Source of the DNA: a virus
Strand: one strand, 5' to 3'
DNA length: 20,246 nt
IMG/VR virus record: IMGVR_UViG_3300017730_000138
Span: 1 to 20,246 of that record
The notes under the pieces are model-generated. The model had not been told where the DNA came from. It made no database searches and was given only the letters and a program-made list of their open reading frames with translations. The number at the start of each line of letters is the position of its first letter. Positions within the stretch are counted from its first letter, which is position 1. Both the position numbers and the translations under genes were made by a program. Below, one piece after another: positions 1,861-6,545 of the stretch.

Positions 1861-2146
1861 CACTATTCTCTGTTGGATTTTTAATAAACAAATGTTCTAT
1901 CTTATCTCTATGAGTTTCAAACCACAGCTCTTCAAATGGTCTAATCTCTACATCACTTGGGAACATAGGATTGTGTTCTAGCTTTTGTAACTCTGGACTA
2001 CTAGCTGTATAAAACTTTTGATAAGGTTCTATACCATCTTCAGTACCAGGAATTGTTATACAAATAACATCTTCTGTGCCATCAAAAGCCTCTATCAATC
2101 CCTTAATAAATTCTTTTCTAAATCTGCTTTTGTATAACTTCATCAT
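1850..2146 (-). CDS. Unknown protein, 98 aa
   Basis: The start ATG overlaps the stop of the LexA-like gene (ATGATGA), so translation is probably coupled. The sequence is mixed and globular-looking: a basic N-terminus (MMKLYKSRFRKEF), a beta-like stretch (VICITIPGTEDGIEPYQKF) and a helical C-terminal half. No motif is recognised. Because it is encoded immediately after a stand-alone LexA-like DNA-binding domain, it could be a partner of that protein, but nothing in the sequence shows it. Confidence 0.5.
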   Translation of the reverse strand: MMKLYKSRFRKEFIKGLIEAFDGTEDVICITIPGTEDGIEPYQKFYTASSPELQKLEHNPMFPSDVEIRPFEELWFETHRDKIEHLFIKNPTENSDGN

Positions 2147-2355
2147 AATATTTCTATACCTCTTGGTTTAGCTGGATGTACTTTAATATGATTATCTCTT
2201 TCTAATAACCTTAACATGCGATGCACATTTGAATGTACACATCCCATGTGTTTAGCTATCTCTCTTACTGTAGGAGGTACTCTATCTTTTTTGTAATAGA
2301 CTTTAATGTAATCTAAAACTCTTAATTGTTTTTTAGTTAGCATTACTGTCGCCAT
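2143..2355 (-). CDS. Stand-alone LexA-like winged-helix DNA-binding protein, 70 aa
   Basis: The protein matches the LexA N-terminal DNA-binding domain along its whole length: MLTKKQLRVLDYI (helix 1), RVPPTVREIAKHMG (turn and helix 2), HSNVHRMLRLLERD (recognition helix and helix 3) and a wing ending KPRGIEIL. It begins like alphaproteobacterial LexA proteins. LexA is normally about 200 residues with a C-terminal Ser-Lys self-cleaving peptidase; here the gene stops after the DNA-binding domain, so RecA-stimulated autocleavage cannot occur. A strong Shine-Dalgarno (AAGGAGGT) precedes the ATG at 2355, inside the end of the ERF gene. Two LexA-type boxes lie in the promoters of its own operon (4490-4504 and 5385-5399), so autoregulation or competition with host LexA is the natural inference. 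Confidence 0.8.
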   Translation of the reverse strand: MATVMLTKKQLRVLDYIKVYYKKDRVPPTVREIAKHMGCVHSNVHRMLRLLERDNHIKVHPAKPRGIEIL

Positions 2356-3061
2356 TGTTAACCTCCTTTTTCTTTTTAATTATTTCATTAAGTTTTGATT
2401 TAATGTATGAGCAACGAATAGAGATCTGATCACCAGCTGCTGGTAATTGCTCTTTACAATTATCCCAATTATTTTTTTGAGAATTTTCTTGATCTTCTAT
2501 TTTATTTAGTCTTTCTTCTGGTGATAGATTTGCATCTTTAGAAATAGTATTCATTTTTTCTACTTGTTCTTTAGAATACTTAATCCATTTATTATCTTCT
2601 GCTGTTGGTTTAGAAGATACAGCTGCATTACCATCATCATCTTCACTAGGTAATCCATAGATAGCTTGTAAAGAATATCTTTTGGCATAAGTAATAGCAG
2701 ATCCCAGGGCCTGGCTATCATCATACTTATTATTTTTTGGAATGATTAAGTATCTAGATTTAATTACAGCATCACTATCAGTATGCATTAAACTTGTTGT
2801 TACATACATAGTAGTGTCAATTACACCTTCTATTATTTGTTTTTGATAATCAATAGTTTGTGTAAATGCTAATCCAAACTTGGCCCCTTGATTAGCAGCT
2901 GCAATTACATCTTCTAATCCAGCATAACTTGATTTGAAATAAGGATTTTTTTTATCCTTAACTGCTACATTAGCCTCTTGTTGAAACTTACTTAAAGCCT
3001 CAACTATACTTTTAGTGTTGGGTTTCGTCATCGTCATTTTCTCCTGGTTCTTCTGGTTCAT
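2333..3061 (-). CDS. erf: ERF-family single-strand annealing protein
   Basis: Residues of about 15-155 follow the ERF superfamily pattern: SIVEALSKFQQEA at the start, NPYFKSSYAGLEDVI, GLAFTQ, then SRYLIIPKNN and the family-typical QALGSAITYAKRYSL followed by an acidic DDDGNAA segment. ERF proteins bind single-stranded DNA and anneal complementary strands in phage recombination. The C-terminal third is charged and variable, as usual. The exonuclease encoded two genes upstream would supply the 3' single-stranded tails it needs, so together they form a Red-like recombination pair. A good Shine-Dalgarno (AAAGGAGC) precedes the ATG at 3061; a second ATG at 3037 also has one. It overlaps the genes on both sides. 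Confidence 0.88.
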   Translation of the reverse strand: MNQKNQEKMTMTKPNTKSIVEALSKFQQEANVAVKDKKNPYFKSSYAGLEDVIAAANQGAKFGLAFTQTIDYQKQIIEGVIDTTMYVTTSLMHTDSDAVIKSRYLIIPKNNKYDDSQALGSAITYAKRYSLQAIYGLPSEDDDGNAAVSSKPTAEDNKWIKYSKEQVEKMNTISKDANLSPEERLNKIEDQENSQKNNWDNCKEQLPAAGDQISIRCSYIKSKLNEIIKKKKEVNNGDSNAN

Positions 3062-3281
3062 TTATTGCTCCTTTGTCCACATGAATTGTGAATATTTGAT
3101 TTTGCATTTTAAGACCTTCAATGGCAGCCATAGCCACATACTCAATAAGCTCCTCAACAAAAGGAACCTCAAGTTCAAGACCGGTCTTTTCATAGATCTT
3201 GTTTCTAACTTTCCTGGCACTTTCTTTTCTTGCCAATAAATAGGCATTGATCTGAAAGTATTTTCTTGGATCATCATCCAT
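3012..3281 (-). CDS. Unknown protein between exonuclease and ERF, 89 aa
   Basis: A mostly helical small protein (FQINAYLLARKESARKVRNK, then VEELIEYVAMAAIEGLKM) with a very acidic tail (EEPGENDDDE). It overlaps the exonuclease stop by eight bases and the ERF start by about 50 bases, so the three are translated as a block. No family is recognised. Position between the two recombination genes suggests a recombination accessory factor; the acidic tail could mimic DNA or recruit a partner. Both ideas are inference. Confidence 0.55.
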   Translation of the reverse strand: MDDDPRKYFQINAYLLARKESARKVRNKIYEKTGLELEVPFVEELIEYVAMAAIEGLKMQNQIFTIHVDKGAINEPEEPGENDDDETQH

Positions 3282-4254
3282 TCATATCCTTTATGGTAAA
3301 CCTTCTAGTTATTGTAGGAGCTGCACCTTCAACTTTAATTGTTTTAGTTTTAGCTCTTTCATAAGTAGAATGATTAATCATATATCCTTGGCATTCAGCT
3401 TTCTCATGCTCACCCAGGATCTCTTTCATTCTTATTGATACTGTGTCCTGGATTTTTTTAGATGCTTTGATTGCTTTATCAGCAGATAGATAATCATCTA
3501 TTAATTGTGGTAGTTCATTATTTTTATTAAAGTTAATTACATCTTTAGATCCATTACCTTTGAAGATCCTTGATGCCTCTTTTGTATTAGCAGCTGCGTA
3601 GTGTAGCTTATCACCTTGCATGATACCATCAACTCTATGCCAAAATTCTACAGCAGCATTAATTAACTTATCTTGTATTTCTTTATTTGGTTTATAAACA
3701 AACCATTGTAACTCCCATCCCTTAACTAACCTAACCAAGATGGCATAGTTATAACCGGTAGTTAAGAGTTGGGCCTGTACCTGGAGTTTATAAATTTCAG
3801 ATACATCATCAGAGGCAGCCCCAGAATAATTTTTAATCTCAATCACACCCTTACCATTCAAGCTGTGGGAGCTTTTAGAATGGTCAATCAAGTTTAAAGT
3901 TTTATCAAGATGCATTTCTGCATCCAGGGAGCTGCCTATTTTTCCACCATCAACTTCATAGAAGTATGCTTTATCCGGAACACTTATATTTAGAGGGAGC
4001 TTTCCTTGTTCAGCACAAATCAATTTCAGTTCATTGTGAAACATTTGTATTATTGCCGGTTCTAAAATAGTACCAGCTTTAACTTTAGGTAAGTTAGCTA
4101 TGTCATTTGTAGCCTCCTGTCCTTGTAAGGCATTGATTGCCTTTTCCAACTCATCATTCGGTGAGCTGAAACCTATATAACCTTGATCGGTTAAAACTAA
4201 ATTAGGGATAGAGCTAGATCCTATCTCTCTTCTGGCATACGAAGTTAATTTCAT
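3274..4254 (-). CDS. YqaJ/lambda-exonuclease-like PD-(D/E)XK recombination nuclease
   Basis: The 326-residue protein carries the motifs of this family in order: GxxxEP-like G61-E65-P66, Asp111 in GSSLDAEM, Glu139-x-Lys141 in GVIEIKNY, and the Gln-rich helix YKLQVQAQL at about 155-163. In the family Asp and Glu bind metal and Lys activates water to degrade one strand 5' to 3', giving 3' overhangs for annealing. The ERF protein downstream is the expected partner. I chose the ATG at 4254 because GGAGG lies seven bases upstream and the start overlaps the stop of the membrane microprotein; an in-frame ATG 36 bases upstream has no such site. Roles in recombination, repair and concatemer formation are inferred from the family. 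Confidence 0.85.
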   Translation of the reverse strand: MKLTSYARREIGSSSIPNLVLTDQGYIGFSSPNDELEKAINALQGQEATNDIANLPKVKAGTILEPAIIQMFHNELKLICAEQGKLPLNISVPDKAYFYEVDGGKIGSSLDAEMHLDKTLNLIDHSKSSHSLNGKGVIEIKNYSGAASDDVSEIYKLQVQAQLLTTGYNYAILVRLVKGWELQWFVYKPNKEIQDKLINAAVEFWHRVDGIMQGDKLHYAAANTKEASRIFKGNGSKDVINFNKNNELPQLIDDYLSADKAIKASKKIQDTVSIRMKEILGEHEKAECQGYMINHSTYERAKTKTIKVEGAAPTITRRFTIKDMNG

Positions 4255-4412
4255 TATATGCCTCCCATCATTCCATAGTATGCAGCACACTTATCTGACA
4301 ACGCACACATAACTATAGTAAATAAATAAATTGCAACTAACATTAAAAGAAATGTTATGCACTCGGCAGCAAACTTGATTTGCTCTTTATACTTTTTAAT
4401 CAACTGTATCAT
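4254..4412 (-). CDS. Membrane microprotein, 52 aa, single transmembrane helix
   Basis: The product has a short basic N-terminus (MIQLIKKYKEQIKF), one transmembrane helix (about residues 18-38, FLLMLVAIYLFTIVM region) and a short Cys-containing tail ending YYGMMGGI. A strong ribosome-binding site (AAAAAGGAG) lies eight bases upstream of the ATG, and its stop overlaps the exonuclease start. These two facts support translation although it is short. It is the first gene after the candidate internal promoter and LexA-type box. No family is recognised. A lysogeny- or damage-linked membrane effector is possible, but unproven. Confidence 0.6.
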   Translation of the reverse strand: MIQLIKKYKEQIKFAAECITFLLMLVAIYLFTIVMCALSDKCAAYYGMMGGI

Positions 4413-4431
4413 CTTTACTCCTTTTTAATTG

Positions 4432-4469
4432 GTGTCTAAATGACCTTGTATAGTTTATCTTTTAGACAC
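4432..4469. repeat. 38-bp palindrome: 9-bp perfect inverted repeat beside the serine recombinase gene
   Basis: GTGTCTAAA at 4432-4440 is repeated inverted as TTTAGACAC at 4461-4469, with a 20-base AT-rich centre. It lies 12 bases beyond the recombinase stop and between a candidate promoter and the ribosome-binding site of the membrane microprotein. Size and symmetry fit a crossover site of a serine recombinase (two half sites around a central dinucleotide), a repressor operator, or an RNA hairpin in the leader. No uridine tract follows on either strand, so a terminator is unlikely. Confidence 0.6.
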
Positions 4470-4480
4470 ATATTGTTTCT

Positions 4481-4504
4481 ATTATAGATGAACATTAACA
4501 GAAC
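4481..4504 (-). promoter_or_regulatory. Internal promoter -10 (TATAAT) with LexA-type box GTTC-N7-GTTC
   Basis: On the minus strand GTTCTGTTAATGTTC occupies 4504-4490, a perfect match to the alphaproteobacterial LexA operator GTTC-N7-GTTC. A consensus TATAAT follows at 4486-4481, overlapping the stop codon of the recombinase gene. The box therefore lies where the -35 to -10 spacer would be, so a bound repressor would block RNA polymerase. The -35 region is poor, as in activated or weak promoters. The transcript would begin near 4474 and carry the membrane protein, exonuclease, ERF and LexA-like genes. Confidence 0.6.
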
Positions 4505-5147
4505 ATCTATTTACATAATTTCTTACAGTAGAAGGATACCATTCACCATTTCTAACTGTAGGAATTCCTCTTGCATTTAGAGCTTTTGCAATTTCAGATA
4601 ATGTAGTTACACCATATTTTTTAAGATCTACTATAAGGTTATTAACAGATCTAGCTTTCTCATCTGCTAACAATTTCTTTTTAGCATTACCTTTTATTGC
4701 AGCTTGTTTTAAGTTTTTAGTATTACCTAAAACAACTCCTCTTTTTTTTGCCTGGGCCAAAGCAGATTTAGTATTCTTTCTTAAAGTATCTAAATACTGT
4801 TCAGCTACAGCAGCCAAAACTTGTATCGTAAATTTATTTACTGATGGCATATCACAACAAACAAACTCAATCTTACTTTCCATAAGTGATGCTGTGAATG
4901 CCAGGTTACGAGATAGTCTATCAAGTCTAGCAATAACTAAAGTTGCTTTTTCTTTTTTACATAACTCCAGGGCCTGTGTTAATTGTGGTCTATCATTTTT
5001 AGATCCACTTTCTTCTTCCTGGAATACTTGCAGCAGCTCATCATTCTTAACAAACTCATTAATAGTTTGTAATTGATCAGCAGATCCATAACCTTCCTTA
5101 CCTTGCTTATCTGTACTAACTCTAGTGTAACCTACATATTTTTTCAT
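4482..5147 (-). CDS. Small serine recombinase (resolvase/invertase family)
   Basis: The N-terminal catalytic domain is clear: YTRVSTDKQ with nucleophile Ser11, then ESGSKNDRPQL, TLVIARLDRLSRN with the conserved arginines, and the long helix KFTIQVLAAVAEQY. The C-terminal region (TTLSEIAKALNARGIPTVRNGEWYPSTVRNYVNR) is a helix-turn-helix DNA-binding part. At 221 residues it has the size of resolvases and invertases, not of large serine integrases (over 400). It breaks and rejoins DNA through a phosphoserine link. Possible jobs are phage integration, dimer resolution or inversion; the window does not decide. A 38-bp palindrome just downstream is a candidate site. The start overlaps the previous stop (TAATG). 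Confidence 0.88.
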   Translation of the reverse strand: MKKYVGYTRVSTDKQGKEGYGSADQLQTINEFVKNDELLQVFQEEESGSKNDRPQLTQALELCKKEKATLVIARLDRLSRNLAFTASLMESKIEFVCCDMPSVNKFTIQVLAAVAEQYLDTLRKNTKSALAQAKKRGVVLGNTKNLKQAAIKGNAKKKLLADEKARSVNNLIVDLKKYGVTTLSEIAKALNARGIPTVRNGEWYPSTVRNYVNRCSVNVHL

Positions 5148-5359
5148 TACGCAGCCCCCTTATCCATATAGTATCCTTCGGATCCTAATTTTAATTCAGC
5201 AAATAAAAATGTTTTAGTATAGCCAAACTTTTTTACAACTTGTTTTCTGTTTGCAATTCTAAAAACTTTTTCCCATGCCATAATTACAGCTTGTGCTTTA
5301 TGTGGAGCTTTAACTTTGCAAATAACTTTTTCTGCTTTTTTTATTAACCATGTTTTCAT
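5147..5359 (-). CDS. First gene of leftward operon, unknown, 70 aa
   Basis: I chose the ATG at 5359 because GGGAGG lies about eight bases upstream; an upstream in-frame ATG at 5401 has no ribosome-binding site and coincides with the predicted transcription start. The product is small and basic (MKTWLIKKAEKVICKVKAPH..., then QVVKKFGYTKTFLFAELK), with a probable alpha/beta fold and no known motif. It is translationally coupled to the serine recombinase (TAATG overlap). By position it might regulate or assist the recombinase, like an excision factor, but no homology is visible. Confidence 0.55.
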   Translation of the reverse strand: MKTWLIKKAEKVICKVKAPHKAQAVIMAWEKVFRIANRKQVVKKFGYTKTFLFAELKLGSEGYYMDKGAA

Positions 5360-5384
5360 TTGTGTAGCCTCCCTAGCTTTTGTT

Positions 5385-5399
5385 GTTCTTATATTGTTC
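5385..5399. promoter_or_regulatory. LexA-type operator GTTC-N7-GTTC at the divergent promoter
   Basis: GTTCTTATATTGTTC is a perfect match to the alphaproteobacterial SOS operator (GTTC, seven bases, GTTC). It lies immediately downstream of the predicted -10 of the leftward promoter, at roughly +2 to +17, and upstream of the ribosome-binding site of the first gene. A repressor here would block initiation or early elongation of the recombination operon. It is one of only two such motifs I found by eye on both strands of the window; the other also precedes genes of this operon. Confidence 0.65.
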
Positions 5400-5407
5400 A
5401 TATACTA

Positions 5408-5437
5408 AATATATATTTACGATATATAAATAGTCAA
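5408..5437 (-). promoter_or_regulatory. Leftward sigma70-type promoter
   Basis: On the minus strand TTGACT (5437-5432) and TATATT (5413-5408) are separated by 18 bases, a good sigma70 match. The start point would be near 5401. It drives the leftward operon and sits in the only divergent gap of the window, 65 bases upstream of the rightward ribbon-helix-helix gene. For the rightward direction I see only AT-rich -10-like sequence (TATAAA at 5425-5430) without a convincing -35. Confidence 0.6.
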
Positions 5438-5466
5438 GAGTTAAATTAATAAAAAGGAAAAAAAAT

Positions 5467-5652
5467 ATGCAACCTAAATTAACCCCACTTTTCCTTAATA
5501 TTTCAGCAGATTTGAAGAGTAAGCTAAAGATCCAGGCTAAAAAAGAGAGGATCCCTATGGTTACTTTGATCAGCGAGGTATTGGAATTTGGACTACCGAA
5601 GAGAAAACAAATCAAAAAACAAATCATGGGAGGTATAAGTAATGGCCGATAA
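5467..5652 (+). CDS. Ribbon-helix-helix (Arc/CopG-like) regulator, 61 aa
   Basis: The sequence has the ribbon-helix-helix arrangement: a short strand (PLFLNIS, residues 7-13), helix A (ADLKSKLKIQAKKERI) and helix B (VTLISEVLEFGL), followed by a basic tail. Proteins of this fold dimerise and insert the beta ribbon into the major groove of operators; phage Arc and Mnt are examples. GGAAAA upstream of the ATG is a modest ribosome-binding site. It is the first rightward gene of the divergent region, where such regulators usually control their own and the opposite promoter. It overlaps the next gene by 11 bases. Confidence 0.72.
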   Translation: MQPKLTPLFLNISADLKSKLKIQAKKERIPMVTLISEVLEFGLPKRKQIKKQIMGGISNGR

Positions 5653-6022
5653 AATAAATCCGGATCACTACAAAGATAACAAAATAGAAACTTGCGATGC
5701 TACATTCTCACAATTATCAGAGGCAGAGATACTTGGGGCCTGTAAGTTTAATATAGCTAAATACACATTCAGAGCTGGTAAGAAAGTACAAACTCTTGAA
5801 GGTACTAGGGATGACATTGGTAAGGCCCATTGGTACTGCGAGAGATTACTCAAAGAGCTTACTGACATGATTAATAAAAGAAAAAAAGCAAAACGAAAAG
5901 ATCCAACAGATATTGATCTTGAAGATCTAACAGAAGAAGATCTACAGGAGCTGCTAAACCCTGGAGCTAAAGTTGTTCCAATAAAAAAGAAAGAGGATAA
6001 GAATGACAAAAATTCCAAATAA
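5642..6022 (+). CDS. DUF3310 family protein (phage nucleotide-kinase-like annotation)
   Basis: The N-terminal 75 residues follow the DUF3310 pattern: INPDHYKDNKIETCDA, then LGACKFNIAKYTFRAGKK and DDIGKAHWYCERLL. Members are widespread in phages and are sometimes annotated as nucleotide kinase, but I know no demonstrated activity and no P-loop is present. The remaining residues form a charged tail rich in Lys, Asp and Glu. GGGAGGT upstream is a strong ribosome-binding site. It lies in the replication module, overlapping the RHH gene and the DnaA-like gene. Confidence 0.8.
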   Translation: MADKINPDHYKDNKIETCDATFSQLSEAEILGACKFNIAKYTFRAGKKVQTLEGTRDDIGKAHWYCERLLKELTDMINKRKKAKRKDPTDIDLEDLTEEDLQELLNPGAKVVPIKKKEDKNDKNSK

Positions 6023-6545
6023 TGTAATGCGACCACCGAAAGGTTTTGAGTATGTACAACAAGGATCTGTACCTAATGTTCAAGCTAAACCCATTCAAGA
6101 TGATACGAAGATAAGGATCAACTATCTTGAAAGTAAATTAGATAAGATCATGGATGAGCTGCGAGTATTGAAGAGAAGAGATAAGTATAAACCTCAACCA
6201 AACGAGAGAGCTAAACGAGTATGGATTTCAGATATACTTGAGGCTGTTTGTGATTACTATGAAATGACACCAGCTGACATACAATCTGCAAGTAGGCTTT
6301 CAGAGATTGTAAGAGTTAGATCTGTATTTATAAACTTATGCAATTCACTTACTCATGGATCTTATTCTGCAATAGGTAGAATGTGTGGTAACAGAGATCA
6401 TACAACAATCATTCATCATGTAAGATTAAAAAGAGATAAGACTAATTGCTGGAATATTAAGAAGGAATTGGGATTAGAGCTGTGGTCAGATTTTGGCAAA
6501 CTTGAGGCCGAATTAAAGTCTAAAGCAGAACCAGATAATGAATGA
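6003..6545 (+). CDS. DnaA domain-IV-like DNA-binding protein without ATPase domain
   Basis: Residues 72-145 resemble the C-terminal DNA-binding domain of DnaA: VWISDILEAVCDYYEMTPADIQ, RVRSVFINLC, YSAIGRMCGNRDHTTIIHHV. The GxRDHTT signature, which contacts DnaA boxes, is intact (129-136). The AAA+ ATPase core of DnaA is absent: the 180-residue protein has only a short basic and coiled N-terminus before the domain. It therefore probably binds DnaA-box-like DNA without forming the origin-opening filament. It may target the phage origin or compete with host DnaA (inference). GAGGA precedes the ATG, and the stop overlaps the replication initiator start (ATGA). Confidence 0.82.
   Translation: MTKIPNNVMRPPKGFEYVQQGSVPNVQAKPIQDDTKIRINYLESKLDKIMDELRVLKRRDKYKPQPNERAKRVWISDILEAVCDYYEMTPADIQSASRLSEIVRVRSVFINLCNSLTHGSYSAIGRMCGNRDHTTIIHHVRLKRDKTNCWNIKKELGLELWSDFGKLEAELKSKAEPDNE

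Follow-up and report, generated by a model that had tools for sequence, protein, structure and literature searches.

The operator of the alphaproteobacterial SOS response is a direct repeat, GTTC-N7-GTTC (PMC8565304), and a SAR11 host is reported to have recA, lexA and umuDC (PMC12753301). The closest precedent for a phage that carries LexA-type boxes at its own genes together with a small LexA homologue, nearly a DNA-binding domain alone, is GIL01, a Bacillus phage (PMC6182141). In this phage, host LexA-gp7 acts on the dinBoxes, and gp6 is a truncated LexA homologue (PMC6182141, PMC4551915) that activates late genes and binds GaCACAnnTGTGaC (PMC6182141). The kind of system considered here is already known from GIL01 (PMC6182141).

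The locus studied here lies in a virus record of 20,246 bases, referred to below as the window, from a marine phage that is related to MEP301 and whose connector and tail tubular genes show relatedness to pelagiphages. GIL01 is a tectivirus with a Gram-positive host (PMC6182141), and the window phage is unlike it in that the box precedes recombination genes; the gp6 operator had no match in the window when up to one mismatch was allowed. In the literature, titles and abstract openings among the matches listed, with most subscription journals outside the scope, contained nothing on this box or on a LexA-like protein in MEP301-type phages. If the reading that we favor below is true, the GIL01 principle, host LexA combined with a truncated phage LexA, would extend to marine phages of Gram-negative hosts, and phage recombination, a shaper of phage mosaicism, would be tied to host DNA damage.

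Results

Gene layout of the locus

The original prediction had assigned a serine recombinase, an exonuclease, an ERF protein and a LexA-like domain to one leftward operon, and Pfam and PHROG matches confirmed all of them, as a resolvase-type recombinase, a RecE-like exonuclease, ERF and a LexA DNA-binding domain. The exonuclease is RecE-like by its PHROG match (9.5e-27), and its Pfam YqaJ match falls under the cut-off of that family. The features of the locus, in window coordinates, are:

2143..2355, minus strand: mini-LexA, 70 aa, a LexA DNA-binding domain alone, without a protease domain
2333..3061, minus strand: ERF single-strand annealing protein (Pfam and PHROG matches)
3012..3281, minus strand: p89, function not assigned by matches
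3274..4290, minus strand: RecE/YqaJ-like exonuclease; the reading frame opens at 4290, with the ATG at 4254 the likely start (Pfam and PHROG matches)
4254..4412, minus strand: p52, a small protein, first gene past the box-dyad element
4432..4469, minus strand: dyad GTGTCTAA-N22-TTAGACAC, 20 nt past the box and just before the p52 ribosome-binding site
4482..5147, minus strand: small serine recombinase, 221 aa (Pfam and PHROG matches, alignment)
4490..4504, minus strand: site 2 box
5147..5401, minus strand: 84-aa open reading frame, first gene of the leftward operon
5385..5399, plus strand: site 1 box
5408..5437, minus strand: candidate sigma-70 promoter of the leftward operon, TTGACT-18-TATATT (consensus match only)
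5467..5652, plus strand: Arc-like protein of the ribbon-helix-helix type, transcribed divergently from site 1, assigned by weak PHROG matches (E 0.0014 and 0.0036)

Within the 84-aa frame, a GGGAGG ribosome-binding site, read from the sequence, sits before an internal ATG near 5359, so that translation from 5401 may be leaderless, or 5401 may serve as an alternative start. The genes between the operon leader and the recombinase (5147-5401 in the window, and the corresponding interval in relatives) vary among close relatives, like a slot for exchanging small genes. Farther along the window, 6003-6545 encodes a phage protein with a DnaA C-terminal DNA-binding domain (PF08299), adjoining a DUF3310 protein.

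Number of boxes in the window

Exactly two copies of GTTC-N7-GTTC were found in the 20,246 bases, both where they had been predicted: site 2, GTTCTGTTAATGTTC, at 4490-4504 on the minus strand, and site 1, GTTCTTATATTGTTC, at 5385-5399 on the plus strand, which reads GAACAATATAAGAAC on the minus strand. The argument that fewer than one would be expected by chance stands with regard to the expectation (shuffle mean 0.34), but the count is only mildly unusual, with at least two boxes in 6 of 100 shuffles, and the number of boxes alone is therefore a weak argument. A separate run of 1000 shuffles gave a mean of 0.31 and a probability of 0.037 for at least two. The stricter form GTTCT-N6-GTTC, picked only after the host lexA boxes described below had been seen, fits both sites, with a shuffle mean of 0.14 and P = 0.009 for at least two. 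Allowing one mismatch gave six matches in the window where 3.9 were expected, so there is no signal in degenerate boxes, and the E. coli-type CTGT-N8-ACAG had a single, distant match, with one present in 24 of 100 shuffles.

Boxes proved rare in related genomes, with 1-2 per record in five records of 33.7-35.9 kb. Over 26 records there were 16 box matches versus 6 for the reversed pattern, many of the 16 being orthologous. Among ten control records (six from pelagiphages and four contigs that carry related recombinases), two contained GTTCT-N6-GTTC, with three matches. Two of these three are in the SAR11 phage Baldr, both within annotated genes, and a clade B record (G004; clades are defined below) has a second box that is distant from both sites. 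A further GTTCT-N6-GTTC, GTTCTGCTAATGTTC, was observed between acetyltransferase-like and portal genes at L159:1799, in a MEP301-related contig that belongs to a MAG labelled Flavobacteriaceae, with the recombination genes not in view. We also noticed that in OQ414635.1 and OQ414636.1 (Hodr, Baldr) the locus tags bear each other's name.

Comparison with alphaproteobacterial lexA boxes

The LexA DNA-binding domain was searched in 289 alphaproteobacterial genomes, of which 224 matched, and the surroundings of lexA were read in 16 small genomes (1.2-1.7 Mb) picked by hand for their size. A box was present no more than 120 nt upstream of the LexA domain in 14 of these 16, and all 14 lexA-promoter boxes had the form GTTCT-N6-GTTC, with T at position 5, including six whose loci have 27-34% G+C. 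The two phage sites match this operator, as had been proposed, sharing with it the direct repeat and the T at position 5. Site 2 differs from the alphaproteobacterial operator in that it is phage-borne and has no recognizable promoter, and the host of the phage may not be alphaproteobacterial.

Conservation of site 2

Site 2 overlaps the final codons of the gene for the serine recombinase. The TATAAT at 4486-4481, which had been read as part of a promoter at this site, is present, but it overlaps the recombinase stop codon and the scan of 4200-5700 found no sigma-70-like site there, so that this part of the original prediction was not sustained. The hexamer is kept in the four nearest relatives only (L003-L006).

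Relatives were placed in three clades, a grouping of our own, with recombinases of 85-100% identity (clade A), 61-63% (clade B) and, where read, ~32% (clade C). Where the element was visible, site 2 was perfect in the window, in all 21 contigs of clade A and in 14 of the 16 from clade B; in L022 and L028 of clade B the second half is GTTT. These counts do not depend on the pattern scan, since the same contigs were also recovered by protein-based scans. Four of the 39 retrieved stretches (L068, L076, L093 and L094) were rejected as unrelated contigs with other spacings. Clade C had no box in any of four longer records, nor in nine non-redundant loci covering 76,885 bases. Conservation at the same positions in relatives, on which the predicted circuit had been made to depend, was thus found for site 2, kept in two clades before the recombination cassette, but not for the perfect site 1 box.

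The gene over the box differs between the two clades that retain it. It is the 3' end of the recombinase gene in clade A, where it encodes the tail C-S-x-N-V, whereas three aligned clade B recombinases end earlier and have no such tail, and the box in six annotated clade B loci lies in the 3' end of a gene for a 114-116-aa HTH protein (the imperfect form in L022 and L028), matching HTH_3 in L025, the one tested. The box is coding in both clades, in the same frame (C-S-x-N-V), which could help to keep it; a synonymous test at site 2 in clade A (5 of 5 single-codon positions versus 102 of 157, about 0.12) was weak and not significant. In both clades site 2 precedes p52 and then, normally, the exonuclease gene, with L008 having other sequence past p52.

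A dyad at constant distance from the box

Across relatives the dyad has the form GTGTCTAA-N22-TTRGACAC, and its distance from the box is constant in clades A and B. The box, the 20 nt and the dyad make up a 74-bp element. Among six distinct clade A and seven distinct clade B sequences, invariant columns made up 12/16 of the box, 15/16 of the dyad arms and 12/42 of the spacers (Fisher 0.002 and 1e-5, which are guides only because neither columns nor sequences are independent). Identity between A and B was 98% in the box halves, 100 and 96% in the arms, and 53 and 45% in the spacers. In clade A the dyad lies outside any gene and in clade B within one, a difference that speaks for selection at the DNA or RNA level. 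As RNA it folds into a hairpin of -11.4 kcal/mol (z -2.73), and 3 of 200 shuffles fold equally well; Rfam had no match in 4200-5500.

A scan of the collection found the dyad in 42 stretches, five of them new, four without these genes (L150, L151, L153 and L154) and one that is clade A-like (L152). The dyad accompanies recombinases of 61-100% identity. A role as a recombinase site of the res or att type was considered and rejected, since no such arms occur beside 12 recombinases that are 32-46% identical, where other 8-bp dyads are found. As a separate observation, both ends of a 34-kb contig (L033/L034, IMGVR_UViG_3300030380_000444) lie within the recombinase gene, suggesting a circular or circularly permuted genome.

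Site 1 and the operon leader

On the minus strand, site 1 lies directly past the candidate -10 of the leftward operon. The promoter predicted here is only partly borne out: TATATT is present at 5413-5408 and, with TTGACT at 5437-5432 and a spacer of 18, forms the better of two sigma-70-like sites in 4200-5700, but the region has fewer such matches than its shuffles, which average 6.1 sites versus the two found, so the scan itself is no promoter evidence. Counted by contig, the perfect site 1 box was present in 6 of 20 clade A sequences (window included) and in none of eight in clade B or eight in clade C (6/36), contrary to the conservation that had been expected. Over the three clades the site takes six forms, all but one of which depart from the box by a single mismatch, with GGTC for one half in A and B and GTAC for the other half in C, and the block is readable in A and B as a translation start, ATG AAC AAT ATA AGA. 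We therefore treat the perfect box as lineage-specific; site 1 is best read as a conserved operon leader, with a perfect box in some lineages only. The divergent Arc-like protein is a possible rival regulator.

The phage LexA-like protein

Mini-LexA matches PF01726 over residues 6-66 of its 70 (E 1.8e-12), and all nine PDB matches are LexA chains. It is encoded within the same cassette in the loci that were annotated from all three clades, and the clade C protein is 68-80% identical to it. No S24 domain (PF00717) was found in any of six long clade A and B records, so coupling to SOS would require an alpha-type host LexA, and no tyrosine integrase was found in the six long records either.

The recognition helix of mini-LexA reads S-N-V-H-R, and S-x-[IV]-H-R is present in 12 of 16 alphaproteobacterial LexAs; the one betaproteobacterial LexA read has an E. 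coli-like N-A-A-E-E helix. In these residues the mini-LexA helix resembles the alphaproteobacterial type more than the betaproteobacterial, and a preference for the GTTC half-site may be surmised from this. The alphaproteobacterial LexA closest to mini-LexA in this respect, with S-N-I-H-R (L190), is encoded at a lexA locus that has no box, as is the case at only one other of the 16.

Host and relatives

The original prediction assumed an alphaproteobacterial host, an assumption that is undercut by the nearest isolate, MEP301, which infects Methylophilales (PMC8024684) and has TerL, portal and phosphodiesterase proteins of 67, 66 and 66% identity. MEP301 and the window phage both have recombinase, YqaJ and ERF genes, but MEP301 has no box and no mini-LexA match at E 1e-3. 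A TerL scan for the host gave 15 loci, the best 66-68% identical and thus no close match, with MAGs labelled Alphaproteobacteria, Chloroflexi, Flavobacteriaceae and Hyphomicrobiales. The Hyphomicrobiales MAG has a MEP301-type relative in a 186-kb contig (TerL 67%, portal 63%), and this phage region may be a prophage, since a MazG gene and a tyrosine integrase gene lie some 14 kb off on one side, where a YqaJ exonuclease gene is also found. Relatives of the window's phage group may be temperate in alphaproteobacteria (L160, L238 and L239). If the reading set out below is true, the alpha-type box would predict that phages with a Methylophilales phage as their nearest isolate have an alphaproteobacterial host.

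Proposed control of the recombination cassette

We propose, with a probability of roughly 0.4, that a LexA-family repressor uses site 2 as its operator, within a conserved 74-bp element of the exonuclease-ERF-mini-LexA cassette. What is observed is the sequence of site 2, its agreement with the lexA boxes of hosts, its conservation with fixed geometry in two clades and its rarity in those genomes; from these we infer that LexA binds, that the box has a promoter, and that the cassette is repressed and depends on SOS. Site 2 probably belongs to a real control element, and binding by a LexA-family protein would, on these sequence comparisons, be the best single explanation of it. The element would consist of the box, 20 nt and the dyad, directly ahead of p52-exonuclease-p89-ERF-mini-LexA. 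An alpha-type host LexA, the protease-less LexA of the phage, or both, would bind the GTTC repeats and hold the recombination cassette down, and the level of the cassette would be set by the disappearance of host LexA when DNA is damaged, or by build-up of mini-LexA.

In favor of this operator reading, site 2 is kept in clades A and B although the gene that overlaps it is a recombinase gene in one and an HTH gene in the other; the column counts of the 74-bp element, the lexA boxes of the small alphaproteobacterial genomes and the helix shared with 12 of their 16 LexAs point the same way. Against it are the boxes away from such cassettes (G004, L159 and Baldr), the L190 helix at a locus without a box, the missing promoter at site 2, the coding of the box in both clades, the GTTT halves of two clade B contigs, the lack of the box in clade C, HTVC103P and HTVC104P despite their LexA-like proteins, a host that may belong to Methylophilales, and the E. 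coli-like helix of the one betaproteobacterial LexA read. Of the SOS-type circuit predicted from the two boxes, what stands is an alpha-type box at site 2, conserved before a recombination cassette; the comparisons do not establish a two-operator circuit, and they weaken its site 1 half. A bolder version, in which host LexA and an uncleavable mini-LexA contest the alpha-type box, with box and dyad acting as one unit, so that the phage borrows and then overrides SOS control of the cassette, seems to us quite improbable.

Other explanations were weighed for each site. We give an even chance to the view that site 1 is not a LexA box but the conserved leader or start region of the operon's first gene, possibly leaderless. 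The six variants spread over clades A, B and C, five with a mismatch, point this way, and the clade A variants, read by eye, hold one frame into the next start codon; yet no variant has lost both perfect halves or the 11-bp period, even with a different spacer (L065), as an operator might. That both boxes are chance matches is unlikely. Two or more boxes in 6 of 100 shuffles and the boxes that other phages have where no such cassette lies would be consistent with chance, but chance does not readily account for the conservation of site 2 with fixed geometry, nor for P = 0.009 with the stricter form.

For site 2, an alternative nearly as probable as the operator reading is that the dyad does the work, either as an RNA hairpin in the p52 leader or by being recognized by the recombinase or an HTH protein, while the box beside it is a passenger that coding and shared ancestry have kept. 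Conservation within the element is highest in the arms, they are noncoding in one clade and coding in the other, and the RNA folds better than most shuffles; on the other hand, the box is more conserved than the spacers, the arms do not accompany the 12 more distant recombinases, the invariant left arm means that no compensatory changes are seen, and Rfam gave no match. Rather less probable, though somewhat more so than chance, is that mini-LexA, and not host LexA, reads site 2 and perhaps site 1. The cassette would then be autoregulated and independent of SOS, as mini-LexA has no self-cleaving domain. Such a role would agree with its place in the cassette in all three clades, with a helix region that is invariant in five A1 sequences, with the lack of an S24 domain in the long records, and with the precedent of a truncated phage LexA that has its own operator, GIL01 gp6 (PMC6182141). 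However, clade C, HTVC103P and HTVC104P have the protein but no GTTCT-N6-GTTC, and the half-site preference is not to be assumed, because GIL01 gp6 evolved a different site.

GTTC repeats in other phages with LexA-like proteins

HTVC103P and HTVC104P encode a LexA-like protein and have no GTTCT-N6-GTTC. Enrichment of GTTC pairs was looked for in phages with distant LexA-like proteins. The peaks at GAAC-N4-GTTC, GTTC-N16-GAAC and GTTC-N11-GTTC were mostly repeated homologous coding-like stretches and were discarded; the N7 peak was partly one conserved gene junction. A second promoter-like region of the HTVC103P group keeps the first half, with GAAC as the second half in at most 3 of 10 aligned rows. 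We also observed GAAC-N7-GAAC immediately ahead of a small early gene's ribosome-binding site in 8 of 10 loci read from contigs that are related to HTVC103P and HTVC104P and encode a LexA-like protein. This early-gene site is not there in HTVC103P and HTVC104P themselves; it occurs at L129:1595, L133:558, L134:616, L139:1400 and L141:239, and also in L132, L144 and L145, with three different spacers.
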